Assembly: GCF_004216665.1 (NCBI RefSeq)
Contig: NZ_SGWY01000003.1
Location: 496,001-560,000 of the forward strand
DNA length: 64,000 bases
From: Agromyces ramosus
GTDB lineage: Bacteria > Actinomycetota > Actinomycetes > Actinomycetales > Microbacteriaceae
Direction of reading: 5' to 3'
Shown: one piece after another, positions 41,616-64,000 of the stretch
Layout: each line of letters opens with the position of its first letter
Numbering within the stretch: position 1 is the stretch's first letter
Translations under genes and position numbers: made by a program
Notes under the pieces: model-generated
The model's database searches: none
What the model saw: only the letters and a program-made list of their open reading frames with translations
What the model was told of the DNA's origin: nothing

Positions 41616-41796
41616 GAATACTCTTCCTCGCTCGGCTCGAGCAATCTACGGGAAGGAGACTCATGCGGTTTGCGATGGTCTCGCGTGCGAACTGACCGTC
41701 GCCTAGTCAGTCTTCTCATACCTGATTGACGACGAGATCCTGCGCGCCTATCGCAACCCGCGCGGGCATCGGCATTCTGCGACGGCTTCACGATGA

Positions 41797-44824: not shown

Positions 44825-45415
44825 TTACTCGATCAAGCCGCCAGTCGGAGTCGGCTCTCGATTCGCCATACGCTCGTTTCGTGCTCTACGCAGGGCCCGA
44901 ACGCCAACATAGATTGCGAGCGGCACGATCGTCGCCCATAGGATCTTGCCGACCATCTGGCCCACGATGCTCTCGAACGTCAGCGGGAATCCCGCGATCC
45001 AAAGGAAGAGCACCGTGTCTACCGGCGCGGAGACGCAGTTCGAGATGAGCGCAGCCCGAACGAAACCGCGCGGGCGAGCCCAAAGGAACACGAGCATGTC
45101 TGCGACTTCAGCGACGAGGAAGGCAACCGCAGAGGCCAACGCGAGCGCGGGCGTCGCGAGGAACCACGAAAGCGCCAAACCGACTGCCATTCCGAGGAGC
45201 ACACCGCGGACGCCGAGGTAGGTGTGGACGAAGTCGCGCGATAGGAGCGCGAATCCGGCCGCATACGTTCCCGCCGAGACTACAAGCCCGAACCCCACCG
45301 GAACCAGACCAAAGTTCGCGGAGAGGATATTCGCGGCAACGATGGCTCCAATGTAGACGGCGAGCGCGATCGCTCCACGGAACACATTGCGACGGTCATA
45401 GACCTTGGCGTTCAA
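44825..45415 (-). CDS. VUT-family (DUF165/YhhQ-like) queuosine precursor transporter
   Basis: This 196-residue protein has about six hydrophobic helices (AIALAVYIGAIVAANILSANFG, GFGLVVSAGTYAAGFALLSRDFVHTYLG, ASAVAFLVAEVADMLVFLW, AALISNCVSAPVDTVLFLWIAG). The SRDFVHTYLG and SNCVSAPVDT segments are typical of YhhQ/VUT proteins, which import preQ0 or preQ1. The start is probably TTG at 45415, with AGGAG five bases upstream, overlapping the end of folE2 by 20 bases. As the last gene of the preQ0 operon it could scavenge preQ0 for the Dpd system. Confidence 0.87.
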   Translation of the reverse strand: MNAKVYDRRNVFRGAIALAVYIGAIVAANILSANFGLVPVGFGLVVSAGTYAAGFALLSRDFVHTYLGVRGVLLGMAVGLALSWFLATPALALASAVAFLVAEVADMLVFLWARPRGFVRAALISNCVSAPVDTVLFLWIAGFPLTFESIVGQMVGKILWATIVPLAIYVGVRALRRARNERMANREPTPTGGLIE

Positions 45416-46235
45416 AACTGCTCCTGCTAGTTGGTCCTGGCGACCATGACAGTGATGCGACTGCATCATGGCTGTGAATGCTCTCGAAGTTGCGAACGTG
45501 GATCGAGTGCCGAAGACCGCGGGCGCGGCATGTTGAGGAGAGATCTCGAACCATATCCTCAACGAAGGCGGGGCGGTCGTACGCCTCCATCGTGATCCAA
45601 CGCTCGTCCGGGCGTTTGATCACGGGGTAAATGGGGCACGAGCCAACTTGACGCGCGAGCGAGAACATCTCGCTCAGAGTGAGCGGATACAGGTCATCGG
45701 CGTCGCCCGTTACCGACAGCGTCACGGCACTTCGCTGATTGTGTGCGCCGTACTCACTAATCGCTTTGCTGCAAGGGCAAAGACTCGTGACGTGCGTTGT
45801 CAAGGTCGTCGTCATCGTCGCTGACTCTGCCGAGCCTTCAATGGAGAATCGGACATCGGCGGCCTGCCAGGCCGCCACATCCGAGACAGGCGCTCGAACC
45901 TCGAACGAAACTGCAAGATCGAACGAGATACGAGCTTCCGTTGCGTCGAGGCGATCGGCTGCGGTCGCGATCAACGCGTGGGCGCGCCGAGGATCGAACT
46001 CACGCAGCTGGACGGCGAGCGTCTCGACCATGCGACTCATGTGTGTACCGCGCCGGTCTGGCGCTAAGGGGACGACGAAGTCCGCAGAGCCCACGCCGGC
46101 GGCATCCACTTCGCCATCAATGATGCGGATGGGAGTGCGTACACCCGCGACTCCTACCGCATCCAGTTCAATCCCGCGTCGGTCAACTTCGTCCTGGATG
46201 TCGGGCAGCGCATGGGCCAACTCGGGGAGCATCAT
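45396..46235 (-). CDS. folE2: GTP cyclohydrolase, type IB
   Basis: This 279-residue protein matches FolE2 (COG1469), which turns GTP into dihydroneopterin triphosphate, the first step toward preQ0. The signature THVTSLCPCSKAISEYGAHNQRS (Cys153 and Cys155) and the N-terminal GVRTPIRI and GTHMSRM segments are characteristic. FolE2 replaces the zinc-dependent FolE. Its start overlaps the queD stop (ATGATG), so it is translationally coupled. Confidence 0.95.
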   Translation of the reverse strand: MMLPELAHALPDIQDEVDRRGIELDAVGVAGVRTPIRIIDGEVDAAGVGSADFVVPLAPDRRGTHMSRMVETLAVQLREFDPRRAHALIATAADRLDATEARISFDLAVSFEVRAPVSDVAAWQAADVRFSIEGSAESATMTTTLTTHVTSLCPCSKAISEYGAHNQRSAVTLSVTGDADDLYPLTLSEMFSLARQVGSCPIYPVIKRPDERWITMEAYDRPAFVEDMVRDLSSTCRARGLRHSIHVRNFESIHSHDAVASLSWSPGPTSRSSFERQGL

Positions 46236-46615
46236 TGGCCTCCGTTCGATTCACCGCGATACGTACACCGTGAACGCGGGGTTTCGCTCACAACGATCGC
46301 GTGGAGGAGTGGGAGTGCGACGCTGAGCCTGTCCCACATCCAACGCGCGAGGTGCTCGCTGGTCGGATTCTCGAGGCCTTCGATGTCGTTCAAGAGGCGA
46401 TGATCGAGCTGTGCAGAGATCGGTGCAAACGCAGTTGAGAGGTCACCGAAGTCCTGGACGAAGCCGCTCTCGTCATCAACGGCGCCGCGCACATGGACCT
46501 CGACCGTGTAGGAGTGCCCGTGCATGCGACCGCACTTGTGCCCGGCGGGGACATTCGGGAGAAAGTGGGCGGACTCGAACGAGAACTCGCGGGAAAGTTC
46601 GGCGTAGAAGGTCAT
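46232..46615 (-). CDS. queD: 6-carboxy-5,6,7,8-tetrahydropterin synthase
   Basis: The 127-residue protein converts dihydroneopterin triphosphate to 6-carboxytetrahydropterin. Zinc ligands His17 (FESAHFLPN), His32 and His34 (MHGHSY) and the catalytic Cys28 are present, and the late Glu-containing SEHLARWMWD is typical. The start ATG overlaps the queE stop (ATGA). It is the second step of the preQ0 branch. Confidence 0.95.
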   Translation of the reverse strand: MTFYAELSREFSFESAHFLPNVPAGHKCGRMHGHSYTVEVHVRGAVDDESGFVQDFGDLSTAFAPISAQLDHRLLNDIEGLENPTSEHLARWMWDRLSVALPLLHAIVVSETPRSRCTYRGESNGGQ

Positions 46616-47247
46616 GCGATTCCCAAGTATTTGTGTGTCTGGAGGCTGAGCTGCCACGTCGGGTGGTTCAGGCAGTATTCGACTGCGAGCGCGGTGTTTA
46701 CGCTGATGTCGGGGCCGTCCATGGGCTGAACTCGATAAGTTCCGAAGTCGAGATGCTCGAAGCTCGACGGATCCACGCCCTTTTGTGGATAGACGAACTT
46801 GAGTTCGTCCCCACGCGTAACCACGAGATCGGCCCCGATTTTCGGACTAACGCAAAGCCAGTCGACACCCGCCGGAGGGATCCGCGTGCCGTTCGTCTCA
46901 ACGGCTACGTAGAAACCCCGTCGGTGGAGCGCCTCGATGGCTGGCTCGTCAAGTTGAAGCAGCGGCTCGCCGCCTGTGCAGACGACCATCCGATTGGATG
47001 CCCAACCGACCGGCCACGCGGCTTCAACCGCGTCAGCAAGCTCATCGGCCGTGGCGAACTTGCCTCCACCCGGACCATCCGTTCCGACAAAGTCCGTGTC
47101 GCAGAACTGGCAGATAGCGCGAGGGCGGTCGCGCTCACGCCCGGTCCAGAGGTTGCAGAGGCTGAACCGGCAGAAGACTGCTGGACGACCGGCGTGCGTT
47201 CCCTCCCCCTGGAGGGTGTAGAAGATCTCCTTGACCTTGTACGACAT
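46612..47247 (-). CDS. queE: 7-carboxy-7-deazaguanine synthase (radical SAM)
   Basis: The 211-residue protein makes CDG from carboxytetrahydropterin. It begins with FYTLQGEGTHAGRPAVFCRF and carries the unusual iron-sulfur motif CX14CX2C (Cys31, Cys46, Cys49), the variant known from Burkholderia QueE, rather than CX3CX2C. VCTGGEPLLQLD follows. The start ATG at 47247 shares one base with the queC stop (TGATG). Confidence 0.95.
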   Translation of the reverse strand: MSYKVKEIFYTLQGEGTHAGRPAVFCRFSLCNLWTGRERDRPRAICQFCDTDFVGTDGPGGGKFATADELADAVEAAWPVGWASNRMVVCTGGEPLLQLDEPAIEALHRRGFYVAVETNGTRIPPAGVDWLCVSPKIGADLVVTRGDELKFVYPQKGVDPSSFEHLDFGTYRVQPMDGPDISVNTALAVEYCLNHPTWQLSLQTHKYLGIA

Positions 47248-47942
47248 CAGGCAGCTTGATAGGAAACGGGGTCGGCGAACCCAGCCTCCTGAAATCCACG
47301 GATCCGCAGCAGACACGAGTCGCAGTGTCCGCACGAACGGCCCTCGTCATCGGGGTCATAGCATGACAGCGTCAGCGAGTAGTCGACTCCGAGCTCTGTG
47401 CCGGTCTGGACGATGTCGGCCTTCGTCATTGAGATCAGCGGAGTGTGGATCTTCAGTCGTGCACCCTCGACGCCGGCGCGCGTGGCAAGGTTCGCCATCG
47501 TCTCGTACGCTTCGATGTACTCGGGCCGGCAGTCGGGGTAGCCCGAGTAGTCGAGCGCGTTGACACCGATGAACACATCAGTTGCTCCGACCACTTCGGC
47601 GAACGCAAGAGCGAAAGAGAGGAAGATGGTGTTCCGAGCGGGGACGTAGGTGACTGGAATTTCCTCCGCGGAGAGGTCTCCAGCATTTTCGTGCTTGGGA
47701 ACCTCTGTCTCCGACGTGAGTGCCGAACCACCAAAAGTCCTCAGGTCGATGTCACAGACGACGTGCTGTGCAACACCCTGAGCCTTCGCCACACGCTTCG
47801 CTGCTTCAAGTTCCACGACGTGACGCTGGCCGTAACGGAAGCTCAGCGCATACGGCTCGTAACCCTGGTTCTTAGCCAGTGCGAGAACGGTGGTTGAATC
47901 GAGGCCTCCACTGAGGAGAACAATTGCCTTGCGCTTGGACAC
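47247..47942 (-). CDS. queC: 7-cyano-7-deazaguanine (preQ0) synthase
   Basis: This 231-residue protein catalyses the ATP-dependent conversion of CDG and ammonia to preQ0. The PP-loop LSGGLDSTT (11-17), the [17 protein letters not shown] segment and the zinc cysteines [18 protein letters not shown] are present. The GTG at 47942 follows GGAGG. It is the first gene of the queC-E-D-folE2-transporter operon and is divergent from the candidate dpdC gene. No queF is present, so the pathway stops at preQ0, the base used by the Dpd system. Confidence 0.95.
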
Positions 47943-47993
47943 GTGAGCCTCCGCTCTTTCTGACGTTTGCACGCACCGCAATGATAGATCGAA

Positions 47994-48008
47994 ACTGTCG
48001 CGTACAGT
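47994..48008. promoter_or_regulatory. Dyad ACTGT-N5-ACAGT between the divergent Dpd operons
   Basis: The inverted arms ACTGT and ACAGT flank CGCGT, a 15-bp dyad in the 89-base space between queC and the candidate dpdC. It overlaps the sequence TACAGTAG, which could be a -10 element. An autoregulatory repressor site is possible, but no regulator gene is recognised in the island. Confidence 0.5.
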
Positions 48009-48031
48009 AGCATCGAATCACGCGCAGTTAG

Positions 48032-48937
48032 GTGGTGTTACTGTTGGAGAAACTCACGATCGTCGTGACCTGCACCGACCGTAAGTCACTTGTAGTTCCC
48101 GAGCAGCGGATGCTCCGCTCGCTGCCTAACTCAGTTTCCAAAGCGCCCGTGTGGACCCAGCGGATCGAGTCCGCTGATACGGTCACCCTCCTGAGGAACC
48201 TCTACCAAGGCGACGCCTGGGCTCAACTTCCGCGCCTCGAGGACGCCTCACGCGCCATCGGATTCGAGCCAACGACATACGTTGCGTCGGCTGGACTGGG
48301 GTTGCGCCCGGTTTCAACCCCAGGACCAGCCTACGGCGCAACATTCACTCCGAATTCGCCGGACTCCGTGCCAGGTTCCGCAATACAGCAACGAGCGTGG
48401 TGGGACCACTTGAATAGATGGAACGGATCCGGGGGGCATCTTCCCGACGGCATTCCAACGCTCTTCGTCTTGTCTCGTCGCTATGCCGACGTGTTGGCGC
48501 CGCTCGTCGCGAAGACCGCCGTCGCCAGCCCGGTACTCGTCATCGGGGGGTCGGAGGCAATCGCACCCTCGCTGCGATTGCCAGCCGACGCCAAACTCCG
48601 TTCCGCACTAGGGGGCACACTCGGTGCGCTCAACATGCGTACGGCTGTCGCGTGGATGGAGAGACTAACCTCTACCGTCATCGATTCCACTCGCCATCGA
48701 GAGTTATGGCACAACTGGGCGACGCGAGCCAGCCGACATGAGCGCCACGAGAGAATTCCGCTTGCGGACCACGAGGTCCTTAAAGCGGTCCGTCGGATCC
48801 GCACTCAGGAACCGACCATCAGCAAGACTCGCGCGCTCCGGTCACTACGCGAGAACGGCTATGCGTGCGAGCAGAAGCGTTTCGGGCAACTGTTTGAAGC
48901 GTTCGAGGAGGAGCATCGTGGCACAAGAGTGGATTGA
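48032..48937 (+). CDS. YaaA-like protein, candidate DpdC
   Basis: This 301-residue protein starts with the pattern LTIVVTCTDRKS, and later has TYVASAGLGLRP and AYGATFTPN. This echoes DUF328/YaaA-like proteins (ISPAK-type start, then a conserved small-residue turn). In the Salmonella Dpd system dpdC is needed to turn preQ0 in DNA into the amide form. Position at the head of the dpdB-dpdA operon and the fold-like pattern suggest that role here, but this is inference. GTG at 48032 was used; GTG 48035 and TTG 48044 are alternatives. The end overlaps the next gene by 20 bases. Confidence 0.6.
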   Translation: MVLLLEKLTIVVTCTDRKSLVVPEQRMLRSLPNSVSKAPVWTQRIESADTVTLLRNLYQGDAWAQLPRLEDASRAIGFEPTTYVASAGLGLRPVSTPGPAYGATFTPNSPDSVPGSAIQQRAWWDHLNRWNGSGGHLPDGIPTLFVLSRRYADVLAPLVAKTAVASPVLVIGGSEAIAPSLRLPADAKLRSALGGTLGALNMRTAVAWMERLTSTVIDSTRHRELWHNWATRASRHERHERIPLADHEVLKAVRRIRTQEPTISKTRALRSLRENGYACEQKRFGQLFEAFEEEHRGTRVD

Positions 48938-50048
48938 ACGGCGGGCTCTTCGTGTGCTCCAGGGCGAGATCCCGCTTTACCTCTTCACGCTTGCGGCGGA
49001 AGAAGTGGATCAAGTCGCCGACGTGGCCAGGATCTCACGTGATCAGGCCGGCAAGCTCATTGGCTACCAACGGCCGGAGAAGCGCAAACATGTGAAACAG
49101 ATCCAGGACTACCTGGATAGTGAAGACGTGCTCTTCCCCAACGGGCTCATTCTTGCCCTGCCTAGGGAAGTCCGGTTCAAGTCCAGCCGAGGTCCCGGTG
49201 TAAGCGATGGCCTCGCGACGGCGGGCACATTGGAGATTCCTGTCGTCAATGGTGAGGGAGGGCCGCGGCCCGCTTGGATCGTGGACGGCCAGCAGCGCAG
49301 TCTCGCTCTCGCCCGGACCCGGAACCGGCGTCTCCCCGTTCCTGTCGCGGGCTTCGTTTCGGATGACCTGGAAGTGCAACGCGAGCAGTTCCTCAGGGTG
49401 AACACCGTGCAACCGCTGCCCGTTGGGCTGGTCACTGAATTGCTGCCCGAGATTGCGCGCGTGCCGTCAACGCGAATGTCGACGCGACAACTGCCTTCCG
49501 CCCTCGTTGACATGCTCAACTCCGACCCGGACTCCCCCTTCTTTGGGCTAATCCGACGTGCGTCGACGGCAACCGAAGCCCGCCCGAGTGCGATCGTGAC
49601 TGACACCGGACTGGTCGAGGCGTTGCGCGAGTCTGTTGAGTCTCCATCAGGGGTGTTGTTCCCCTATCGGAACATCGCGGCCGGCACCACAGATACCGAA
49701 GGAATCCGACGAACTCTGCTGGTCTATTGGAACGCTGTTCGCGAGACGTTCCCGTCCGCGTGGGGCAAGAACCCGACGGAGTCACGTCTCATGGGTGGCG
49801 TCGGCATTCGTGCGATGGGACGCCTGATGGAACGCGTCATGGCGCACGTGGATGTCGACTCTGCGGATGCCGCCGCGCAAGCGCGCCTCGAAGTCGGCCG
49901 CATTGCCTCTCAATGCCACTGGACAAGCGGCACCTGGACCGATCTGGGGCTTCCGTGGAATGAGCTGCAGAACACTCCTCGGCACATCAGTGCGCTCTCC
50001 AACTTCCTCGCTCGCGCCTATCTTGCAGAGAGAGCGGCCGCGCGTTGA
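48918..50048 (+). CDS. dpdB: DGQHR-domain DpdB-type protein (first copy)
   Basis: This 376-residue protein carries the DndB/DpdB-type motif WIVDGQQRS (Asp123-Arg127), preceded by GYQRPEKRKHVKQIQDYL. DpdB is a ParB/DndB-like ATPase that works with DpdA to place preQ0 in DNA. It begins with GTG at 48918, just after GAGGAGGAGC inside the end of the upstream gene. Its stop overlaps the TTG start of dpdA (TTGA). It is a clear paralogue of 51273-52406: both have GYQRPE and DGQQRS at the same positions. Confidence 0.82.
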   Translation: MAQEWIERRALRVLQGEIPLYLFTLAAEEVDQVADVARISRDQAGKLIGYQRPEKRKHVKQIQDYLDSEDVLFPNGLILALPREVRFKSSRGPGVSDGLATAGTLEIPVVNGEGGPRPAWIVDGQQRSLALARTRNRRLPVPVAGFVSDDLEVQREQFLRVNTVQPLPVGLVTELLPEIARVPSTRMSTRQLPSALVDMLNSDPDSPFFGLIRRASTATEARPSAIVTDTGLVEALRESVESPSGVLFPYRNIAAGTTDTEGIRRTLLVYWNAVRETFPSAWGKNPTESRLMGGVGIRAMGRLMERVMAHVDVDSADAAAQARLEVGRIASQCHWTSGTWTDLGLPWNELQNTPRHISALSNFLARAYLAERAAAR

Positions 50049-51280
50049 AGTTCTACTTCCCTGACAGCCAGGACCTCGTGAGTCCGACGTATGACTTCGA
50101 GCATGATGAATACCTGCCGACGCGCGTTCGGCAGCGTGACGATCGCTACGCTCATGAAGTTCTGGACTCGTCTCCGTACCACGGCTTCCTCGTCAGCAAG
50201 GCGATCGTCGATGGCAGCGTGTCAGGCTCTGGGAAGTACACCTCGTCGCAGAGAGCCCGTCTCTACCGCATGGGTGCCAGACGCTTCTTCCGCCTCCCGG
50301 ATGAGATCGCGACTCTCGGCGACAACGGCGCGTTCAATTACGTGGCCGAGGAGGTGCCGCCGGTTACTGTCGACGACACTCTCGATTTCTACGAAGAGTG
50401 CGGGTTCGACGCGGGAGTCAGTGTCGACCACATCATCTTCGGGTACGACGGCACGGCCGGACTGGACAACGCGGACCCCGCGTGGATCCGACGCCGAGAA
50501 CTAACGCTGGAACTCGCCGCTGACTTCCGTCGACGAGTCGAGGAACGAGGCTCGCGGATCGAACCTGTCGGCGCCGCGCAGGGCTGGAGTCCCGCGAGCT
50601 ACGCCGACAGCGTCGCGCGACTCCAGGAGTTTGGTTACACCCGCGTTGCGCTCGGAGGCATGGTTCCGCTGAGGACGAAAGACGTGCTCTCATGCCTTCA
50701 TGAGATCGACAAGGTGCGGCACCCGTCGACCGAGCTGCATTTGCTCGGCCTGACCCGTGTAGATGCGATGGACGAGTTCTCCCAACTCGGCGTGACGAGC
50801 TTCGACAGCACCTCGCCCTTTCGGCAAGCGTTCATGGACGACCGGAACAACTTCCACACACCGAATGGTGCTCACGTTGCGTTACGCGTGCCGCAGGTCG
50901 ATGGCAACCCGACTCTTCGCCGAGCGATCCTCGCAGGCACAGTCTCCCAGCAGGATGCCATCGCAGCGGAACGCCGAGCGCTGCGAGCGCTGCGGGCGCT
51001 CGACGGCTCCCGTTTCGGAATCGACGACGCGCTTGATGCACTCGGGCACTACGAAACGGTCATGGGCGCAAAGAAGAGTTACCTCCCGGCGTACGAGCAA
51101 ACTCTCGTCGCCGCACCGTGGGCCGCCTGCCGGTGCAGCCTGTGCCGTGAGCACGGTATCGAGATCGCAATCTTCCGAGGCACCGAGCGGAACAAGCGCC
51201 GCGGCTTCCACAACTTGACAGTTCTCGCCAGCAAGGTATCTGCCCTCACCGACCGGAGTTCTTCGCCCACTTATGTCTAA
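50045..51280 (+). CDS. dpdA: DpdA, TGT-like DNA guanine transglycosylase
   Basis: This 411-residue protein belongs to the tRNA-guanine transglycosylase superfamily. ATLGDNGAFNY (Asp93) matches the DSGGF motif, VALGGMVPL (204-205) the GG base-binding motif, and TSFDSTSPFRQ (Asp254) the FDCVxPTR nucleophile region. A zinc site Cys362-X-Cys364-X2-Cys367 with His389 closes the enzyme. DpdA swaps guanine in DNA for preQ0. The start is TTG at 50045, overlapping the dpdB stop. It is flanked by two DGQQR proteins. Confidence 0.93.
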   Translation: MKFYFPDSQDLVSPTYDFEHDEYLPTRVRQRDDRYAHEVLDSSPYHGFLVSKAIVDGSVSGSGKYTSSQRARLYRMGARRFFRLPDEIATLGDNGAFNYVAEEVPPVTVDDTLDFYEECGFDAGVSVDHIIFGYDGTAGLDNADPAWIRRRELTLELAADFRRRVEERGSRIEPVGAAQGWSPASYADSVARLQEFGYTRVALGGMVPLRTKDVLSCLHEIDKVRHPSTELHLLGLTRVDAMDEFSQLGVTSFDSTSPFRQAFMDDRNNFHTPNGAHVALRVPQVDGNPTLRRAILAGTVSQQDAIAAERRALRALRALDGSRFGIDDALDALGHYETVMGAKKSYLPAYEQTLVAAPWAACRCSLCREHGIEIAIFRGTERNKRRGFHNLTVLASKVSALTDRSSSPTYV

Positions 51281-54405: not shown

Positions 54406-54917
54406 GCAGTCCTCCACCTGACACCGAACTCAAGTCGACTCTTGGCGGCTTCCGTTCGGTCGACTACCAGTTCGATGCTCTCCTCGTGCAGGTTCAGCCC
54501 ATTCCACGTGAAGTTCATCGATCCCTTCAACAGCCAGTCGTCTCCGCACAGCACTTTCTCGTGAAGATCGGGACTACTGAACACGGACAACCACTGCTTG
54601 TCGCAGCGACGCCGAATAGTCTCCAGGAACACATCGTTGTGACGGTCCTCCCGAACGGCGACGTTGACGAGAGTTCCTTGCATGGTGAGGTGGGCGAGCA
54701 CGTCGCTCAATATAAGGGCGTTGGCGTCGAGGTCCTCGGCGATGGCGGAGAATTCTCCAGTCCGGTTCTCGATCACGGGGATGTCACTCACCCAGCCGGT
54801 CACGAGCCACAGTTCCTGACTCGGCGCAACGAGTTCCGACACGAGAACCGCACTGAGGACGTCAGAGATCGCGACGCCGTTCCTGGGTCGGGTTCGGATC
54901 GTTCGGTTCAACGTCAC
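54402..54917 (-). CDS. dpdK: DpdK, phospholipase D-like protein
   Basis: The 171-residue protein has a single PLD motif, LHEKVLCGDDWLLKGSMNFT with His119, Lys121 and the following GSMNFT. One HKD motif means it should act as a dimer, like the bacterial PLD nucleases. It is the most likely DNA-cutting subunit of the Dpd restriction arm. Its GTG overlaps the dpdJ stop (GTGA). Confidence 0.85.
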   Translation of the reverse strand: MTLNRTIRTRPRNGVAISDVLSAVLVSELVAPSQELWLVTGWVSDIPVIENRTGEFSAIAEDLDANALILSDVLAHLTMQGTLVNVAVREDRHNDVFLETIRRRCDKQWLSVFSSPDLHEKVLCGDDWLLKGSMNFTWNGLNLHEESIELVVDRTEAAKSRLEFGVRWRTA

Positions 54918-57900
54918 TGATGTCCCTCCGCGAGCACGATCGTGGCGACAAAGTGACGTCCTTGCCGGTCCACCCGTCGGACGACCCCGTAGACCCTGAG
55001 CGGGCCGGTATCGACCGGGAGTGCCGTCAAAGTCCTCAGAGCCTTCGCAAGTTCCGCACGGTGCTCCACGAGGGATCGAAGACGCACGACTCGGTCGCGC
55101 GAAATCACCCGAAGGTAGTCCGAGGTCCACCCATCGGGCATGAGATCGATGAATTCGGATCTGTCCGCCACGACTGCCTCGAGTACACCCCGCTCGCGTA
55201 GACGGTTCGGAACGTAGGGTTGCCAATCATTGAGCGCACTGTTCCGCGCGACCGTTCCACGGAGCCAGAGAGTCGCGTACGCTGAATCGGCGTTCATCGG
55301 CGCGATCGCTCGGCCGAGTGCGCCACTTGCTGCGTGGTACGCGATCACGCGAGCGTCAATCTCGACCCCAAGATGGGCTTCGGCGCCCACCCATTTCTCG
55401 ACGAGGAAGGCGGTGATCTGGTCCGTCACCGAGGTCGCCCCGGGTCGGAGCGCACGTGATCCGAGTGTAGACATCAGCAGGTGCGACGGCACACCGTCGT
55501 GCTCACGGAGTACACCCCGAATGCCCTCAACGGCAATGTCCAAGTCCGACGACGAGGTCCCTGCTCGATACCGATTGATCGCCGCCGTCAGTGACGAACT
55601 CGAGTCCACCAGTTGTCCAACTGCCCAGCGCATCGACGAATCGAGATCGTCGTACTCGCTCCTTTCGCAAATCGCCGACACCAGATCCCAGAACCGTCGC
55701 GGATCTGCGGCGTAGTCGCGCTGGAACTCCTCGAGGAGGCCGAGGCCACCGAGTTCAGTTTCGGAAACGATAATCCGATAGACCTCGGCATCGGTGTCGA
55801 CGATCGTGTCGACGACCAGGTCTGAATCCTGCGCATCAGGTACCCGACGATGAATCGCGGCGAGCACCGCCGAACCGAGGGTGTCCAGCACGGAGCGGGT
55901 GAGGAGATCCTCGGTAGCGATGCGGATGTCCGGATCGATGAGCAGTTGAGCATGCTCATCGAGCACGTCGTTCACCAGTGGGATACGGGCGAAGGATTTG
56001 AGTTCATCGGCACGCTTCGTGCTGACGTGGGCATGGGGATCAGATGAACGGTAGATCGTCTGGAAATACTCGTCAATGTGCGCGCTCCACGCGCCGCGAA
56101 GCGTCGTTTGGAGCGCCATCGTCGGATCCTGATGCGTAAGACCGTTCCGCGCATACGCAACGAGGAAGAGATCCGCAAGCCATTGTCTTGCGAACGCGTT
56201 GGCCACATCGGCGAGTCGCTGATCCTCTGCAATGCGGGTCCGGAACGCAAGCGTGCGCCAAGCCGGTCCTCGCGCGAATTCTTGTAGAAGCAGACTGCGC
56301 ACCGCACGCATACTTCCATTGATCTGGAAGGCGTCCACCTCGAGTTCAAAGCCAAGCGCGGCCGGCGCATCACCGTGGGCGTACCGCGTCATGTGCGACT
56401 CGCGAGCGCCGTTCTTCATAACGATCTCGCCATCGGACCCGATCGCCATACGCCGCACCGTTAACGGGTTGCCCGTGGTGTGAAGTGCAAACCCGCATGA
56501 CTCGACAAACTCCCCCCAGTGTGTCTGATCGGGGAAGTCTGCATCGCTCAGCCCAGTTTCAGGTGCAATGACGGCGGTACGCCACACCGGCATCGCATTC
56601 GATGTGTCTTGGACATCGGGGGACGGCGCAGCGAGTCGCAAGCTGAGTGGCCGCACGACCAAGTAATGTTCACCTTCCTCCGTCGTCCACTCCCCCATGT
56701 TCTGCCCGGCCGCGACGAAGTCCGTCAGTTGGAGCTCACCGGATCTCCCCGGCGGGGCGATCCAGGTCCGGTGGGAGGCGTGCTGGAATCCGAACCGACG
56801 GCTCACGCGCCCCGGTGCTGCTTCGCGCAATCCCGGCAGAATCGGCATAGTGACTTCGTCACTCGTTGACATATTCGACGGAAGTTCGAACCGAATATCA
56901 GGACTGTTCAGCGCGTCGAAGAGCGCGCCCGTCATGAATTCAGGGAGCGGCGATCCACCGGGGGACATCGAGTCTCCGTTGGCCAGGCGCCATTCGGACC
57001 GAAGGCGCTTCAAGGCGGTGGGAACGACCGACAGAAGCAATGACCTGGGCTCGTCCCAGAGAAGTGCCCCTGCCTCTTCCTCAGTGATCCTGAGAGACCA
57101 GGCGAGGAAGGCCTGTAGATGCGACTGCGCCGCAGGGTCGCTCACGATCCGGTCGAGTTCATCTGCGAGCGCGAGGAAGGGCCTCCGTGCCTTGTCGGCA
57201 CTGCGTGGAGGAGAGAGGAGTTCGCGAACATCACTTCGAAGCCGCCGGTGCAGCAAGTCGACAAGCGAGTGCGTGGCCTGAATCTTCTCGACGAAGCGAT
57301 TGCGGATAGGCAACGACCGGATCTCGATCTCGGGATCAAGCAGACGCTCGTACGACTGATACATGACCCTGTCGCGCCCGAAGTCAGAGAGCACGACCAC
57401 GGTGATCGGGCGCATCGTTAGCGAGCGGCCAGCGCGACCTCGCCGCTGGACGAACGATGCCATATCTCGCGGCGCCTTGTGCTGGACAACGAGACCGACC
57501 CTCGGGTCGTTGAAACCCACCTCAAGTGACGCCGTTGCGACGATGACATCCGCCGCAGAGTCGACGCCACGGTCCTGGGACGACGTACGAGCTACGGTCA
57601 GGCCACCAGGAAGTCGGCCGAGTTGCTCCGCCAGGTTCCACGCCTGCCCGTCACGGTACCGAGCCGCTCCCTGCGGCGCACCTTGAACCCGCAGTTCGGC
57701 CAATCGCTTCCTAGCGTTCGGTCGGCCGTTGAAGTAGCCCTCGGCGTCCCGCAGGTCATCAAACAGACGGTTCGTTACATCAAGATCGTCGGTGAAGACA
57801 AACGCCGAGGACCCGAACATCCCCGGTTGCCGATCGAGCATTCGTGCTGTCAGCATCACGGTCTGGATCGTTGTGGAGAGCAATGATCCGCCGGATGATG

Positions 57901-59311
57901 GGTCCCCCCGAAGCACAAGTCCGTACTCGCGCCCGATTGGAACGAGTTCTGTGACCGTGGGAGAAATGACCTGGACATGGGAGCGGTCGACGCCGATGAG
58001 CGACGCGAAGTAGTCACCGGCATCGCGAAGTGTGGCGGAGAGCCCCACGAAAACGGGGCTTGGTGAGCCGAACTGCCCGTTTGCGTGTCGCCACCGACGA
58101 AGCATGAGCGCGACCTGCGCTCCCTGGACACCGGAGTACGTGTGAGCCTCGTCAAGTAGGACCAGTCGTATGCTGCTCGCGCCGCGCCAACCGAGGAGTT
58201 CCCCAAGTTGTGTGGTCGAGTTACGGCTCAACATCTCGGTCGTACTGAACAGGATGTCCGGAGGGTCCCGTCGCATCGAGTCGCGGGTGAGCACGATCTC
58301 GCTGCTGTCGATGATTGTTGAGCATAAATTGCACCTTAGGCGCTCCACTGTGCGCTGGCGATCGGCGTCGGACCAAACGAGATCACCGCGGCACCCGTCG
58401 GTCGGGCAGGGGAAGTACGGCGCGATCCATCCGTCTCGGCGGGCAGTGTTCCTCCAGCCGTGCTTCGCGTTCGGGCTTGAGAGCGCGTGCGCGTTATAGG
58501 GAGTCGCGCCATAGAGCAGCCCGATCCGGATCGGGGGCGACCCTGACGGGAGCGCCGCGTTTGCTCTGCGGCACTGGATCAGGGCCTCTCGAGCCTGGTC
58601 GCGCAAGAGTTCGTTCCTTGGATACAGCGCAAGTGTGTGCGGCGTCTTTGCTTCGGGCTGACGGTTGGCCGCGATATCGAGAAGAGCCGGAAGGTAGAAC
58701 GCGAGCGTCTTGCCGGAGCCCGTGCCAGCCGTGACGATGCGACCACTGGCGCGTTCGGTGCCGATCGCCGAGTAGATGCTCTCCGCAGCATCGACTTGGA
58801 ACCGAGCGAGCGAGCGTTCCCCGATGATCGCACTGGCAACAGCCCCAAGCTCCGCCCGCCATCCCGGGAGCCGTTCGAGGCGCTCTAGGGTGGCGCTACC
58901 GGACTGATCGCGTCTCGGATATTTGCGGGGAATGACACGAAGTCGATAGTCCGCGACCAGCGTCGCTCCCGAACTCCACCACCCGGGGGAGTTCTCGTTC
59001 GACGGGGGCCAGAGTTGGCGAAGAGTGCGAAGCAGTCGGAGTTGTTCTGACAGGCGGGTGCGGAACTGCCGTCTGGGTGCGTCGGGCACCTCGAACAGCA
59101 ACCCGTCCTGGATCAGTCGGTCGACGTACTCATCAACAGTTGGAACCTCCCCGCTCGTCGCGAAGTCGCCTGCGAGTTGTCCCTCGATCGCGTCCCGGAC
59201 CTCATCCTCGCTGAGAAAACCGTCGACAATTCCCCAGGAGAGTCGGGGCAACTCGAGATCCTCCAGCGCCGACAGCACGTCAGGCGCGCGGGCCCAGCGG
59301 TCGCTACTCAC
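54914..59311 (-). CDS. dpdJ: DpdJ, DEAH-box helicase
   Basis: This 1465-residue protein has helicase motif I TAGTGSGKT (195-202), motif II LLDEAH (Asp387-His390), motif V-like VATASLEVGFNDPRVGLVVQ and motif VI QRRGRAGRS near residue 640. A zinc-finger-like set Cys302, Cys307, Cys327, Cys330 lies between motifs I and II. The C-terminal region contains RIIVSETELGGLGLLEEF, which is typical of DUF1998-type helicases. It probably moves along DNA to sense or process unmodified targets. GTG start overlapping the dpdI stop (GTGA). Confidence 0.85.
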   Translation of the reverse strand: MSSDRWARAPDVLSALEDLELPRLSWGIVDGFLSEDEVRDAIEGQLAGDFATSGEVPTVDEYVDRLIQDGLLFEVPDAPRRQFRTRLSEQLRLLRTLRQLWPPSNENSPGWWSSGATLVADYRLRVIPRKYPRRDQSGSATLERLERLPGWRAELGAVASAIIGERSLARFQVDAAESIYSAIGTERASGRIVTAGTGSGKTLAFYLPALLDIAANRQPEAKTPHTLALYPRNELLRDQAREALIQCRRANAALPSGSPPIRIGLLYGATPYNAHALSSPNAKHGWRNTARRDGWIAPYFPCPTDGCRGDLVWSDADRQRTVERLRCNLCSTIIDSSEIVLTRDSMRRDPPDILFSTTEMLSRNSTTQLGELLGWRGASSIRLVLLDEAHTYSGVQGAQVALMLRRWRHANGQFGSPSPVFVGLSATLRDAGDYFASLIGVDRSHVQVISPTVTELVPIGREYGLVLRGDPSSGGSLLSTTIQTVMLTARMLDRQPGMFGSSAFVFTDDLDVTNRLFDDLRDAEGYFNGRPNARKRLAELRVQGAPQGAARYRDGQAWNLAEQLGRLPGGLTVARTSSQDRGVDSAADVIVATASLEVGFNDPRVGLVVQHKAPRDMASFVQRRGRAGRSLTMRPITVVVLSDFGRDRVMYQSYERLLDPEIEIRSLPIRNRFVEKIQATHSLVDLLHRRLRSDVRELLSPPRSADKARRPFLALADELDRIVSDPAAQSHLQAFLAWSLRITEEEAGALLWDEPRSLLLSVVPTALKRLRSEWRLANGDSMSPGGSPLPEFMTGALFDALNSPDIRFELPSNMSTSDEVTMPILPGLREAAPGRVSRRFGFQHASHRTWIAPPGRSGELQLTDFVAAGQNMGEWTTEEGEHYLVVRPLSLRLAAPSPDVQDTSNAMPVWRTAVIAPETGLSDADFPDQTHWGEFVESCGFALHTTGNPLTVRRMAIGSDGEIVMKNGARESHMTRYAHGDAPAALGFELEVDAFQINGSMRAVRSLLLQEFARGPAWRTLAFRTRIAEDQRLADVANAFARQWLADLFLVAYARNGLTHQDPTMALQTTLRGAWSAHIDEYFQTIYRSSDPHAHVSTKRADELKSFARIPLVNDVLDEHAQLLIDPDIRIATEDLLTRSVLDTLGSAVLAAIHRRVPDAQDSDLVVDTIVDTDAEVYRIIVSETELGGLGLLEEFQRDYAADPRRFWDLVSAICERSEYDDLDSSMRWAVGQLVDSSSSLTAAINRYRAGTSSSDLDIAVEGIRGVLREHDGVPSHLLMSTLGSRALRPGATSVTDQITAFLVEKWVGAEAHLGVEIDARVIAYHAASGALGRAIAPMNADSAYATLWLRGTVARNSALNDWQPYVPNRLRERGVLEAVVADRSEFIDLMPDGWTSDYLRVISRDRVVRLRSLVEHRAELAKALRTLTALPVDTGPLRVYGVVRRVDRQGRHFVATIVLAEGHQ

Positions 59312-59994
59312 ACCTGCCGCCGTACGACGAACTGATCGGCAATAGACGGATTCGAGCGCAGGATGTCGAGCTCGTCATCGGTAATGTCGAGCAATGGAAC
59401 GCCGCCTGTGGAGGTAAATCGCTCAAGCACTCTTAGCACTCTCTCTTCAACTTCGATCTGGCCGAGGTCCGTAAGAGCGCGCTGCAAATGGAGCCGGAAG
59501 ATCTTGATCTGATCTACGGACGGAGCGGCACGCCCGGCCTTCCGAACGGCCTCGTCGAGTTCGCCAATCACGGCTCCCACGCGCGAGCGATCGTCGGGCG
59601 CCAGCGCTGAGACCTTGTGGCGTGGAACCGCATCTAGGGCGGTTCGGGACCAAGCTTCCCACCGTGACTTCGACTCCTCCCGGAGCCTCGCAGACTGTTC
59701 GTTTGTCCGTCGGCTGGCCGACTGAATGCGCTGGGTGGTCGGTCGACCGCGGGTAGCCACGAAGTCCCGTAGTTCGGAATGCGCCGTCTGAAGGTCGATC
59801 TGTATCAGGCGTGGCGCGTCAAGGCTGTCCAGGACTCTCCTCGTCTTCAACTCTTCTTCCAGGACTGTCAGCGCGGTGCTTAATCCATCAAGCGCCAGCT
59901 TCAGCTTCTCGATTTCAGCCTGATCGCCCTCTTTGTCGCGTGCAGCCTTTGCCAATCTTTCGAGACTGTTGGCGCGAGTGAGGAGATCACTCAC
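59308..59994 (-). CDS. dpdI: DpdI-like coiled-coil protein (assignment by position)
   Basis: This 228-residue protein is predominantly helical and coiled-coil (NSLERLAKAARDKEGDQAEIEKLKLALDGLSTALTVLEEELKTRR). It ends with an alpha/beta piece (GVPLLDITDDELDILRSNPSI). It may be an adaptor between DpdH and DpdJ. The GTG at 59994, within the end of dpdH, follows GGAGG by seven bases and was preferred to 60012. Its stop overlaps the dpdJ start. The name rests on gene order H-I-J. Confidence 0.58.
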   Translation of the reverse strand: MSDLLTRANSLERLAKAARDKEGDQAEIEKLKLALDGLSTALTVLEEELKTRRVLDSLDAPRLIQIDLQTAHSELRDFVATRGRPTTQRIQSASRRTNEQSARLREESKSRWEAWSRTALDAVPRHKVSALAPDDRSRVGAVIGELDEAVRKAGRAAPSVDQIKIFRLHLQRALTDLGQIEVEERVLRVLERFTSTGGVPLLDITDDELDILRSNPSIADQFVVRRQV

Positions 59995-62900
59995 GATGAC
60001 CCTCCTCGTCACTCGTCAACAGGATTTCATCCCAGCGACTTATTGCAGCATCGATGTCAGCATCGATATCGAGACCTCCAACGAGGTCTCGCCCTTCTGC
60101 ATCCCGAAGACCTGCAGCAAGCCATGAGTCTGTGTATCGGAGGTAGTTCGCGATCGCCACTACCTCACCGCCGTCCGCGCGTCCGACTGCGCTCCACAGG
60201 TCCATCCCCTGAGAATCGCGCGCACCATCGACCGTGCCTTGGAGTCGCCCGACCGACGCGAAGTCCCGCTCCCGAGCCTCCGCGTTCGTCGTTTCGACCT
60301 CCGCGAGATTTGCCTTCACAAAGCCCTGCGTGCTGCCCACCTCTATAGCCGCTTTGATGGCGTCCACCGTCCCGAGATAAGAGACCCCGGCAGGAATCTG
60401 CGTGCGAATCTCCTGCAATACGCGGGCCCACTCGGCGATTTGCGGGACGATCTTCTCTTCGAGTTCGCGACGTGACTTGTCTGACCGTTGCGCCCAAGGT
60501 GGTAGCAGTTCTGATCGGAGTGAATCGACTCCCGAGAGCGCCGATTTCACAACTTGTCGAACTCGAGGATCGTCGACGGCGTGGACAGCACCAATACCCT
60601 GGCTCGCTCCGAGTGCACTGCGGAAGGCGTCGACTGTCGGCTTCCGCTCCGCAAGGTACTTGATCTCGGCTTGAGTCCATTGGCCGATGCGCGAAGCGTC
60701 CGAGCGCGAGAGACCATCGCCACTCCAGAGCACGGCAGCGACGTAGTCGTTCAAACGCGGCTTCACGGGAAGTCGTCCTACTAGGGCGGCGCCCGCCAAG
60801 AGTGAGGCCGCCGCGGCAACCAGATTGGCTTGATCGAAACTCAGGGCCTCAATCACGCGCGTCGTAATCATTGCCCGATACCTGTCGGTGACAGTGCGGA
60901 GGTCGATCAGAGCGTCGGGCGCGATCGACGGGTTCGCCTGGAAATGGAGGAGATTCTTGAACAAGATTCCGTTGGCGGGCGTCTGTTCGAATCGCACGAT
61001 CGGCGCAACACCCTGGGCCAGATTTTCGCTCGCGCCCTCGATCGAGACGGCTCGCGAAATCTGCGTCCCATCAGGGACTGCTCGCGAAAGATCTTGAGTT
61101 CCGGGCGCCTTCATAATCGGATCGATCCATGCAAGATCCGCTACAAGTGCCCTTCGCACAATGTTCCGCACATCCCGCGCGACCGCTTGCGGGAGACTGG
61201 CACCCCGAGCCCAACCGTCTACCTCGTCGAGTTGTCGTTGCAGTGCCGGGGCGATCACCTCAGCCTCCGAGGGCGCCGTCGATTCCTTGTCTGGGCTCTC
61301 AGGAGATGTTGGGCGCTTCGATTCGAAATTGAGATCAGATTGTGGAAGCGAAAACGCAGAGTAAACACCCGGATGGACCTCGAGCGATACGCCACCCCAG
61401 AACTGGAACGCGAGGAGATAGCGTGTGCGCTCAGGTTCGACATAACGCTCGTTGATTTCGCTCAGTTCAGAGAGAGAGAGATCGCTCTGCCTGCGTGACA
61501 GTGCCTGCTCGCTGTCGCGAACTCGCTCGGGACGCAGGAAATCTTCGGATGGGAAGAGACCGTCCTCAATAGAACGTGCTTGCTCGGTCAGAACGCCCCG
61601 AACCATTCGCGCGAGTACACGCCTGGGATTGAAGACCGACTTGCGGTCGGGATCAGCGGTAATCGCCACGGCGCGGCGAAGAGCTGATTCGTTGTAGGGG
61701 TAGAGTCCGAAGCCGTCGTCGGACCTGCCGAAGGTCGCGTGGCATTGCTCGATAAACTCACAACTTTCACACGCATTGGGAATGCTGGGAGCCGCGTCGT
61801 CAAGTTTCGCGTTGCCGAGACGCGCAGCGTTGAGATAGCGACCGACGAAATTGATCGCGGTCCTGTTCGTGCCGCTCGAGATATCAGCGAGATCGACATC
61901 CACCACGTAGATAGGTGAACTCGCCTCTGCACGGGTACGGAAGGTATCGGGTAGCGCACTGTAGTAGCCACTCGTAACTGCCATCATCGTTCGTACGGGT
62001 GCGTATTTTTCCGTGCCGCCAACCGTCCCGACTTCGACGATCGCGTCGAGCAGGTCGCGGCGAATTCCTTGAATCAGTGCGAAGTCCTCAATGAGGAGGA
62101 CGATCTCCTGTCCTACGAGGTGCTCACGGAGTGCCATGAACGCGTTCTGGACGCTTCCCACCCCGAGGTTCGCCGCCCGCATGACAGCGACATCGAGGTG
62201 GTCGTTTAACAACTTGACGGCGGCGACCTGAAGTTGGGGATCAGAACTGATCCGCCGGAATGCCGCGCGTGCCAATTCACTCGCCTCGGCGATATTCTTC
62301 ACGTTCGCAATTGCGAGGGGGAGATCGTCAACCGTGAACATGGGCGGAACATCCTCTTCATCCAGGCCCCGACCCCGGAGAGCGTGTTCGGCTCGCTTTG
62401 GAATGAAGGAATCCGGTTCAAGCAGGTACTGGCGGAAAAGCGGATCGTGCAAGAGAACGTAGAGTCCCCGATCTCCGACGAGCGCCTTTGCCAGAAAGTC
62501 TCGAGGCTCAACCTCAGCCTCGCGCACCGACTCCGCCAGTTCATCAAGGATCTTCCGCTCGAGGGTGGCCTTCGAAACGGCCTCGCTCAAGCCGTCTAGT
62601 TTTGACCGCACCTCTTCGAATTGCGGCCCCGGCAGGTCGCGGAGCAGTCGCTCGATGACGTCTCGCAGGCTTGTCTGCGCCTTCGGGAGATAAATGACAT
62701 GCCTGCCGTGAGACTCCTTGAGTGCGGCATACACCCAGCGCACCAGATGGGATTTCCCAGATCCTGATTCCCCGATGACGGGTGCGACTCGCACGCCCTC
62801 TTTCACGGGCCCGTGCAGGAACTCGTCGATGAACACCTCTTCGGTGATCACCTGGCCTGTTTCACCATCACCGCGTCGCCGGACGCGCAGTGGGGTGTGT

Positions 62901-63001
62901 GTTGCGAGAAGGACGGCGTCCGACGGGCTCGCAGCCTCGGTGGCAATTGTGGCGGTCACCACTTCCGGCGACCAGCAGGTGAAGTTCGTCAGTGTTGTCA
63001 C
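59987..63001 (-). CDS. dpdH: DpdH, large P-loop ATPase
   Basis: This 1004-residue protein has a Walker A motif GESGSGKS (77-84) and a Walker B strand EIVLLIEDFALI near residue 295, followed by a sensor-like VRTMMAVTSGYYSALP, so it is an AAA/STAND-like ATPase. A possible zinc site is CESCEFIEQC. The C-terminal half is helical and not recognised. Size and place agree with DpdH. GTG start overlapping the dpdG stop (GTGA); 8-base overlap with dpdI. Confidence 0.75.
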   Translation of the reverse strand: MTTLTNFTCWSPEVVTATIATEAASPSDAVLLATHTPLRVRRRGDGETGQVITEEVFIDEFLHGPVKEGVRVAPVIGESGSGKSHLVRWVYAALKESHGRHVIYLPKAQTSLRDVIERLLRDLPGPQFEEVRSKLDGLSEAVSKATLERKILDELAESVREAEVEPRDFLAKALVGDRGLYVLLHDPLFRQYLLEPDSFIPKRAEHALRGRGLDEEDVPPMFTVDDLPLAIANVKNIAEASELARAAFRRISSDPQLQVAAVKLLNDHLDVAVMRAANLGVGSVQNAFMALREHLVGQEIVLLIEDFALIQGIRRDLLDAIVEVGTVGGTEKYAPVRTMMAVTSGYYSALPDTFRTRAEASSPIYVVDVDLADISSGTNRTAINFVGRYLNAARLGNAKLDDAAPSIPNACESCEFIEQCHATFGRSDDGFGLYPYNESALRRAVAITADPDRKSVFNPRRVLARMVRGVLTEQARSIEDGLFPSEDFLRPERVRDSEQALSRRQSDLSLSELSEINERYVEPERTRYLLAFQFWGGVSLEVHPGVYSAFSLPQSDLNFESKRPTSPESPDKESTAPSEAEVIAPALQRQLDEVDGWARGASLPQAVARDVRNIVRRALVADLAWIDPIMKAPGTQDLSRAVPDGTQISRAVSIEGASENLAQGVAPIVRFEQTPANGILFKNLLHFQANPSIAPDALIDLRTVTDRYRAMITTRVIEALSFDQANLVAAAASLLAGAALVGRLPVKPRLNDYVAAVLWSGDGLSRSDASRIGQWTQAEIKYLAERKPTVDAFRSALGASQGIGAVHAVDDPRVRQVVKSALSGVDSLRSELLPPWAQRSDKSRRELEEKIVPQIAEWARVLQEIRTQIPAGVSYLGTVDAIKAAIEVGSTQGFVKANLAEVETTNAEARERDFASVGRLQGTVDGARDSQGMDLWSAVGRADGGEVVAIANYLRYTDSWLAAGLRDAEGRDLVGGLDIDADIDAAISRWDEILLTSDEEGHRE

Positions 63002-63798
63002 GACGCCGCCCCCAGGACAGTGACATGCGAGAAATAGTCCTCGCCCTTTGCACCAGCGCCGGCCGGGAATCGAATCACGGACTGTGCATCTGCTGTCCGC
63101 TCGAGTCGAATATGACCACGTGCGGCGAGAGACCGGAGGGCGAATGCGGTCGATGGAAGCACCGTCGCTACCCCGTCGTGTTCGGTGCTGTACAAGATTG
63201 GGAGTTCAGATCTGAGATGCTGTAGCAGGGAGCCGAGTTCCAGAACGCCACCAGGCAAGGGCCCTCCGAAAGGGTAGAAGATGGCGTCGTACACCGCCGC
63301 CGTTGGATCGACACTTCGCTCGCGGGCATCCAATGGCCAATCCCTTGCGAACCCGAGAAATGTCGCCCAGTAAGTGAATGAGTTCCAGCGCGTATCGTTC
63401 ACAAACACACCGTTGCCCGTAGGAAATTCGAGCGTCTTGATGGGCGACTGTTCGACCAGCCATTGGAGAGCCCGGACTAAGTCATCGGGCGAATTGGACT
63501 CATTGCCGCTCACGAGCGTGCGACGGCGCAGTTCCCTCGTGAAGGTTCCGAGATCAAGGTTGCCAATTGATCGGTACGCATTGCCATCATCGGTCACCAG
63601 CATCTCAAACGTGACAAGCGCGTCAATCGCGCGCGAAACATGCGCTGGCTCCTTGAGTTTCTCCCCCAGCATCGAGGACGGGCAAACAGCGTCGATCAAC
63701 TCGGCTCGGTTGAGATCGGGCGTGTCCGCAAGTGCACGAAACACTAGCCACATAGTGCTCGGCAAGTACGGTACCGGACTGATGTTCAGTAGTTCCAC
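62998..63798 (-). CDS. dpdG: DpdG-like protein (assignment by position)
   Basis: This 266-residue protein begins at GTG 63798, one base shared with the TAG of the gene before it. The N-terminal part (STMWLVFRALADTPDLNRAELIDAVCP..., HVSRAIDALVTFEMLVTDDG) looks like a winged-helix domain. A second one may follow near FALRSLAARGHIRLERT. No catalytic motif is visible. Place before dpdH and size fit DpdG, which is linked to the restriction-like phenotype in Salmonella. Confidence 0.6.
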   Translation of the reverse strand: MELLNISPVPYLPSTMWLVFRALADTPDLNRAELIDAVCPSSMLGEKLKEPAHVSRAIDALVTFEMLVTDDGNAYRSIGNLDLGTFTRELRRRTLVSGNESNSPDDLVRALQWLVEQSPIKTLEFPTGNGVFVNDTRWNSFTYWATFLGFARDWPLDARERSVDPTAAVYDAIFYPFGGPLPGGVLELGSLLQHLRSELPILYSTEHDGVATVLPSTAFALRSLAARGHIRLERTADAQSVIRFPAGAGAKGEDYFSHVTVLGAAS

Positions 63799-64000
63799 TA
63801 CAACTCCCTCAACAATGCGGCTGCGCCGACGACCGCGTCATTCGTGTCGCGCAGCATCCATCCGGAACGGTTCGGATCTCGGAGGTCCTCGGGGCCAATT
63901 AGGTAAGTCGGGAGGCCGAGAGCGGCCCTGCCGAGCGCGGCCGCACAGTCACCGTCGTTCGCCATGAAGACGACGCTAGCGCGGTAATAATCTGCAAGCC
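63798..64000 (-). CDS. Unidentified gene of the Dpd operon, N-terminus beyond the window
   Basis: Only the last 66 residues are visible. The frame is open to the right edge and ends at TAG 63800-63798, which overlaps the GTG of dpdG, so it belongs to the same transcript. Readable sequence includes YYRASVVFMANDGDCAAALG, then LGLPTYLIGPEDL, a strand-helix-strand pattern compatible with the end of a Rossmann-like or HAD-like domain. No helicase motif is in this piece, so I cannot say whether it is dpdF. Confidence 0.7.
   Translation of the reverse strand, partial: LADYYRASVVFMANDGDCAAALGRAALGLPTYLIGPEDLRDPNRSGWMLRDTNDAVVGAAALLREL

Follow-up and report, generated by a model that had tools for sequence, protein, structure and literature searches.

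A Dpd 7-deazapurine DNA modification-restriction island in Agromyces ramosus, with two classes of DpdB and a restriction block that looks exchangeable

We analyzed a stretch of 64,000 nt of the 3.84-Mb genome of Agromyces ramosus (NZ_SGWY01000003.1, positions 496,001 to 560,000, forward strand), called the window here. Its part from 44825 to 64000, together with the adjacent genes dpdF and dpdE, is almost certainly a Dpd island, a modification-restriction locus for 7-deazapurines in DNA. The G+C content was 69–75% up to 40 kb and 60–63% from 42 kb to the window end, with a bin of 64% between them (40–42 kb). The dpd genes run in the order dpdC-dpdB1-dpdA-dpdB2 on the plus strand and dpdD-K-J-[I]-H-G-F-E on the minus strand. 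The window end cuts the island, since dpdF begins at 63798 and runs out, with dpdE next; both were read from the genome. The genes are given below, with bit scores set against the cut-off of the model (score of cut-off).

44825..45400, minus strand: VUT/YhhQ-type transporter gene (Pfam Vut_1, 40.6 bits, cut-off 27.2; the open reading frame (ORF) to 45562 is too long, start placed by eye)
45396..46235, minus strand: folE2, GTP cyclohydrolase (PF02649, 4.3e-67; NF010200, 215.4 of 215 bits)
46232..46615, minus strand: queD (TIGR03367, 109.7 of 89.25 bits; Pfam, 1e-37; ORF to 46657, start by eye)
46612..47247, minus strand: queE of the Cx14CxxC type, motif seen (TIGR04508, 341.7 of 240 bits, 1.7e-102; ORF reaches 47334, start by eye)
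47247..47942, minus strand: queC (TIGR00364, 219.7 of 150.3 bits; Pfam, 2.5e-80; ORF to 47981, start by eye)
48032..48937, plus strand: dpdC, predicted hydrolase of dPreQ0 to dADG (PADLOC DpdC, 306 bits, 5e-92, residues 6-291 of 301; no NCBIfam DpdC model matched in the NCBIfam scan)
48918..50048, plus strand: dpdB1, DpdB of the upstream class by its place in a tree, with DGQQR (NF041060, 392.6 of 300 bits; most likely start GTG 48918 behind GAGGAGG, the listed ORF being too long)
50045..51280, plus strand: dpdA, DNA-guanine transglycosylase (NF041059, 585 of 200 bits; PDB 7ui4, E 1.3e-114)
51273..52406, plus strand: dpdB2, DpdB of the downstream class, with DGQQR (NF041060, 497.3 of 300 bits)
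52393..54417, minus strand: dpdD (NF041061, 464.8 of 300 bits)
54402..54917, minus strand: dpdK, PLD-family nuclease with HxK(x4)D and GSxN (NF041068, 176.4 of 100 bits; Pfam PLDc_2 under its cut-off, 24.5 of 27 bits; most likely start GTG 54917, the listed ORF being too long)
54914..59311, minus strand: dpdJ, large DEAH helicase with Walker A and DEAH (NF041067, 1523 of 800 bits)
59308..60012, minus strand: gene at the dpdI position, all-helical predicted protein (I by position only)
59987..63001, minus strand: dpdH, AAA/STAND-like ATPase (NF041065, 910 of 450 bits)
62998..63798, minus strand: dpdG (NF041064, 69.2 of 80 bits, residues 1-253)
63798..64000, minus strand: 3' end of dpdF (726 of 550 bits), which continues past the window to C3:562374
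After dpdF, outside the window, to C3:565600: dpdE (990.6 of 500 bits)

Profile searches against the DpdA-K families found nine of the 11: A, B, D, E, F, H, J and K by NCBIfam models above their cut-offs, and C by PADLOC. G was found under its cut-off, and I was not found by sequence. These searches bore out a sequence-only reading of the same DNA, which had recognized a Dpd island from queC, queE, queD, folE2, a TGT-like DpdA with a zinc site, DGQQR proteins, an ATPase, a helicase and a PLD protein; all of these ORFs are present and matched by family models, as are the zinc-site residues (C362, C364, C367 and H389) and both DGQQR motifs. The order G-H-I-J-K that it proposed stood for G (under cut-off), H, J and K, while I rests on its position. 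Its gene list was right in the genes it named and omitted dpdC and dpdD, and its island was cut at the window end. The gene roles that it quoted from Salmonella Montevideo agree with PMC11888242 and PMC12839542, which, like the other papers here, are cited from excerpts.

Some results weigh against a complete, working island. The VUT gene scored 29.3 bits for TIGR00697, the NCBIfam queuosine-precursor transporter (cut-off 50.95). DpdG fell below its curated cut-off, though nearly the whole model was matched and the gene is in the right position. The protein of 59308-60012 had no match to the DpdI model NF041066 at E<=10, and is by its sequence not recognizably DpdI. None of the eight actinobacterial proteins at the I position matched any DpdI model at E<=0.1, and Pfam and NCBIfam scans of the eight gave no consistent family. 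Aligned by hhalign with two proteobacterial I proteins, the window's protein gave probabilities of 0.95% and 2.3%. Its predicted model (mean predicted local distance difference test score (pLDDT) 78.5) is all helical and had no Foldseek match in the PDB at E<=0.001 (best 0.58). These proteins change fast: in an alignment of eight rows, from which one with a 34-bit match (L021) was left out, identity was 25–31% in six of seven comparisons and 58% with Leifsonia. In the excerpt of the island survey, dpdD and dpdI are the genes present in fewer islands (PMC11888242).

The DpdA protein matched PDB entry 7ui4, "DNA-guanine transglycosylase", over residues 1-399 of 411. It did not reach the cut-off of PF01702, the model for tRNA-guanine transglycosylase (TGT; 15.6 of 26.3 bits). 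The sequence-only reading had named grouping with tRNA TGT or archaeosine enzymes as a result that would speak against it. A 19-protein tree placed 13 DpdA, each annotated as such or linked to dpd genes, and three TGT (that of E. coli and two from the window's family, archaeosine TGT not being included) on opposite sides of a 100/99 branch, with three further rows of neither group on the DpdA side; TGT and DpdA are joined by a long branch, and the program gave a warning of long branches at this join. D93 and D254, taken as the catalytic residues of the TGT fold, correspond to Asp in every one of the 19 rows. The four residues C362, C364, C367 and H389, presumably the zinc ligands of that fold, are kept in 18; the exception is a shortened archaeal row (L075), in which these positions are gaps because the row was cut to 420 residues.

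The genome had no match to PF01702 at E<=0.001, and 14 of 14 control genomes were positive. QueC gave a single match genome-wide, inside the island. Because no TGT was matched and the one QueC is island-borne, all of the preQ0 of this strain probably goes to DNA (the searches covered TGT and QueC). The four genes queC, queE, queD and folE2 adjoin dpdA in 10 of 12 actinobacterial loci, which came from a contig scan with a single DpdA protein that reaches close relatives only and found loci that were all actinobacterial. Of the two exceptions, one is a short contig (L022) and the other has queC-E-D without a folE2 match (L024). One or other of queC, queD and queE also adjoins dpdA in several plasmid loci. 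It might still be that these genes work for queuosine in tRNA, or for a natural product of the 7-deazapurine type, and are neighbors of the dpd genes by chance. Both kinds of pathway, as is generally known, use queC, queD, queE and a GTP cyclohydrolase, and 7-deazapurines are scaffolds of secondary metabolites according to the excerpt of PMC11888242. However, the missing TGT match, the island-borne QueC and the recurrent neighborhood in actinobacterial and plasmid loci leave such a coincidence scarcely credible. The distribution of the island is sporadic. DpdA was found in two of 60 genomes of the genus, that of A. ramosus itself and that of Agromyces humi, and lay above the cut-off in two of 398 genomes of the family (its own and one other). 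Two further family genomes had DpdA matches under the cut-off, and their proteins are 37–38% identical to E. coli TGT.

By analogy with characterized relatives, FolE2, QueD, QueE and QueC would convert GTP to preQ0, and the VUT/YhhQ-type protein, a probable preQ0 uptake protein, may import it. DpdA, with an Asp nucleophile, would together with the DpdB proteins exchange guanine in DNA for preQ0, and DpdC would hydrolyze the resulting dPreQ0 to dADG. DpdD, K, J, possibly I, H, G, F and E, which include helicases, an ATPase and a PLD nuclease, would then restrict unmarked DNA. The excerpts of PMC11888242 and PMC12839542 summarize the preQ0 pathway, insertion by DpdA and DpdB, and hydrolysis by DpdC, and that of PMC12458937 describes DpdJ as a YprA-family helicase that is accompanied by a PLD nuclease in Dpd. 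DpdK has one HxK(x4)D and GSxN, and would therefore act as a dimer. In the excerpts, the eight restriction genes lowered transformation efficiency in a transplanted context (PMC12707154), and unmodified DNA was inhibited (PMC11888242). The chemistry and the restriction of unmodified DNA are thus taken from the literature on relatives, and the island would work likewise in this strain.

We hold it highly probable that this is a complete Dpd modification-restriction island with its own preQ0 supply that probably works, and equally that the DNA of the strain carries a 7-deazaguanine mark. The mark is likely to be mainly dADG, which is favored over dPreQ0 because dpdC is intact. Restriction of unmarked DNA is also likely, going by the relatives. 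That phages are the targets we only infer, since the reported phenotype is reduced transformation or replication of unmodified DNA.

Two other readings of the restriction half were weighed. The island might mark DNA only, by stopping at dPreQ0 or by having a restriction half that is dead or serves no restriction role. DpdG below its cut-off and the unrecognizable DpdI would fit this, as does the excerpt of PMC11888242, in which some islands lack the restriction operon or dpdC. On the other hand, the restriction genes D, E, F, H, J and K have uninterrupted ORFs that match their best models over almost the full length, HxK(x4)D, Walker A and DEAH are conserved, and dpdC matches residues 6-291 of 301. 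In addition, the block differs as a whole set from that of A. humi (described below), which suggests exchange of working sets. We therefore regard a marking-only island as unlikely. In the second reading the restriction genes would attack foreign DNA that bears the 7-deazaguanine mark, by type IV logic, rather than unmarked DNA. A target exists, since phages carry dPreQ0, dADG and related bases (excerpt of PMC6884629), but the host itself would carry the mark, and it is unmodified DNA whose inhibition the excerpt of PMC11888242 reports; this is quite improbable. We also considered a BRIGADE or BREX-related capture (BRC) system with a TGT, the former marked by a second ARMADA-like YprA helicase and the latter by BREX/HerA components in the excerpts of PMC12458937 and PMC12839542. 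Among the genes scanned between 44825 and dpdE, none scored best as such a component.

The two dpdB genes on either side of dpdA belong to different classes. We scanned 21 loci (12 actinobacterial and 9 plasmid) for DpdB at E<=1e-10 and found it on both sides of dpdA in 17: 11 of the 12 actinobacterial and 6 of the 9 plasmid loci. L024 had the upstream DpdB only, L044 the downstream one only, and L048 and L073 neither. A tree of 38 DpdB sequences, including the window's two, split the 19 upstream from the 19 downstream copies completely by one 100/100 branch, with a program warning of some long branches. The single enterobacterial DpdB fell in the downstream class. DGQQR was present in at least 35 of the 36 DpdB relatives as well as in the window's two; for the downstream copy of L022 it was not among the motifs listed, of which there were at most two per protein. 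From their sequences the classes look like old paralogues, fixed upstream and downstream of dpdA and common to actinobacteria and alphaproteobacteria. Since one branch splits them across both groups, they would be older than the split of these actinobacterial and alphaproteobacterial islands.

We lean toward DpdB1 and DpdB2 being non-redundant, and infer differing jobs for the two classes. The predicted model of DpdB1 is of low confidence (pLDDT 73, predicted template modeling score 0.51) and had no Foldseek match in the PDB at E<=0.001. A likeness of DpdB1 to SspE and ParB (rows one and three, E 0.23 and 0.85) was not significant and was not used. Sequence searches of the PDB with DpdB2 and DpdC gave only chance-level rows. 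The excerpt of PMC11888242 counts 801 additional dpdB copies and mentions no class division, and that of PMC12839542 calls the role of DpdB dispensable in certain clusters.

Some of the compared loci have unusual content around dpdA. In Virgisporangium (L024) the upstream-class DpdB stands alone beside dpdA, and dpdC and a downstream dpdB were not found. The Dpd locus of a Paenibacillus plasmid gave no DpdB match at E<=1e-3 and contains a second TGT-like gene (L047:17209-18132), which is strongly diverged. On an Agrobacterium vitis plasmid (L045:26648-32092) a third DGQHR gene, two IS5 transposases, an HNH endonuclease and a restriction endonuclease sit between the modification and restriction blocks.

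We compared the island with known loci. The plasmid pPOL9A of Enterobacter cloacae (NZ_CP086409), which we treat as the enterobacterial type of Salmonella Montevideo (dpdCAB order in the excerpt of PMC12707154), has the same order: in the place of dpdC an unnamed gene that matches the window's dpdC at 50 bits, next dpdA and dpdB, then dpdD-K-J-[unnamed I]-H-G-F-E on the opposite strand. Its DpdA is 44% identical to that of the window. It has a single DpdB of the downstream class, so that the window's extra gene is dpdB1, and no preQ0 genes were found beside its dpd locus, whereas the window has them. Its unnamed gene between J and H reached 108.7 bits for the DpdI model, below the cut-off of 150, whereas that of the window had no match. 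Alphaproteobacterial plasmids (of Agrobacterium vitis, Sinorhizobium, Skermanella, Bradyrhizobium, Caulobacter and Azospirillum) have the two DpdB classes flanking dpdA in the same positions, and their DpdA proteins are 38–43% identical to the window's; where preQ0 genes are annotated, they lie downstream and on the same strand.

The closest comparison is with A. humi (L013), which has an island at the same chromosomal site and in the same order, between a left stretch of 88% and a right stretch of 83.5% identical DNA. Over 44901-52372, the modification block, the two were 97.0% identical, and each 250-base step from 45.4 to 51.9 kb was 96–100% identical. Identity dropped within dpdB2, from about 51.73-51.85 kb. 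Beyond this breakpoint the eight restriction proteins, in equal order, are only 31–52% identical (D 41%, K 51%, J 52%, I 31%, H 42%, G 33%, F 50% and E 47%). We rejected an assembly error as the cause: the A. humi assembly, at 810 contigs, is fragmented, but a single 32-kb contig carries the genes in unbroken order, with intact flanks and near full-length matches.

Trees of the two blocks disagreed in the same way. They were built from the window and 10 of 15 compared loci; L016, L017 and L024 were left out as dpdD, K and J were not found in the available locus DNA (L024 has one 42-bit helicase match), and L045 and L047 by choice. dpdB1 was not part of the modification tree, and dpdK was taken from its matched part. 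By dpdA and dpdB2 the window grouped with A. humi (100/99), other forks being weaker (for example 57/57 and 79/99). By dpdD, K and J it grouped with Leifsonia flava (L015; 100/100), and A. humi with two Microbacterium (100/100); a long-branch warning for L021 and the outgroup join left these clades unaffected. L. flava thus has the closest restriction block, while its modification block (protein identity 77–91% in one comparison and 77–94% in another) falls outside the pair of window and A. humi. The restriction data rejected a tree constrained to join the window with A. humi (approximately unbiased test, p-AU 8e-7), and the modification data rejected one constrained to join the window with Leifsonia (p-AU 5e-4); the groups were named after the trees were seen.

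A second pair, of Nocardioides (L018 and L019), behaved similarly. The two are sisters by dpdA and dpdB2 (82/81) and by each DpdB (100/99 and 99/97), and share 90.2% identity across 7.1 kb that ends at position 12514 in each, after which they differ; forcing them together on the restriction data was rejected. In L018, which derives from a metagenome bin, the last 159 bases of a dpdD match (L018:12356-12514) lie next to dpdB2 and alongside a different dpdD that is complete; at this junction, 194 bases are 94% identical to L019. Judged by this match, the dpdD tail is a remnant of an earlier cassette. In L016 and L017, restriction genes E-F-G-H lie on the plus strand right of dpdB2 and are 24–35% identical to those of the window.

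These comparisons indicate that the marking and restriction blocks were separated, whichever of them moved; with the flanks less similar than the marking block, either may have done so. The restriction block looks like a cassette that can be exchanged, next to a marking cassette that has hardly changed. A bolder proposal is that in this lineage the Dpd island is made of two cassettes, each exchangeable without the other: a conserved one for marking, in which two non-equivalent DpdBs flank DpdA, and a fast-turning one for restriction, replaced at the dpdB2/dpdD junction. We offer this tentatively, as one possible reading that may well prove wrong.

The edges of the island were also examined. 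Between the left flank gene and the island lies a gene for a 695-aa GHKL/HSP90-like ATPase (42679-44766, plus strand; HATPase_c_3, 33.4 of 25 bits). The A. humi contig had no match to it, and a 29% identical gene stands at the equivalent place in Microbacterium sp. B35-30 (L023:2874-4748). At the left edge, the genes of 40047-42207 (minus strand) had no Pfam match at E<=0.01, and the stretch 41831-42334 is 88% kept in A. humi and has matches in a number of further genomes of the genus. An empty site could not be shown when the contig from 28 to 89 kb (window numbering) was compared with six same-genus loci picked via the right flank: the left flank at 28-40 kb stayed unaligned (0/6), and the gene at 69852-71054 is multi-copy. 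There was no tRNA in the window or in L002-L004, and no Rfam match at gathering score in 39000-64000. Direct comparison of the edges yielded no usable att-like repeat and no shared exact stretch of at least 15 bases; one shared stretch of 14 bases, against 0.1 expected from simple shuffles, lies in G+C-rich sequence.

Kineococcus radiotolerans is an actinobacterium. In that species 7-deazapurines in DNA have been shown experimentally, and the survey reporting this covers 2,335 unique islands, 333 of them in Actinomycetota, with preQ0 genes beside about 27% and YhhQ in about 9% (excerpt of PMC11888242). An actinobacterial Dpd island, even one with preQ0 genes, is therefore nothing new, and this one adds a member to a well-surveyed family. 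What is new, so far as the literature was searched, is the pair of DpdB classes and the exchangeable restriction cassette; at the level of titles and abstract starts we found no paper on either, and they may be in print in the primary papers or in the 2024 review. These two evolutionary observations deserve specialist attention.

The two fixed DpdB classes are a concrete lead on the role of DpdB; if the two-cassette proposal is true, DpdB1 would be an uncharacterized partner that might, for instance, serve as a second ATPase subunit or select the target sites. Because it has no TGT match, A. ramosus may offer a clean background, with all of its preQ0 destined for DNA. Together with A. humi it forms a natural swap experiment, in which two strains of one genus have near-equal marking enzymes at the same site and very different restriction sets. 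If the proposal holds, the restriction machinery would recognize the modified base as such, whichever DpdA and DpdB it is paired with, and restriction cassettes of various lineages would therefore fit one mark and could be swapped to outrun phage counter-defence.

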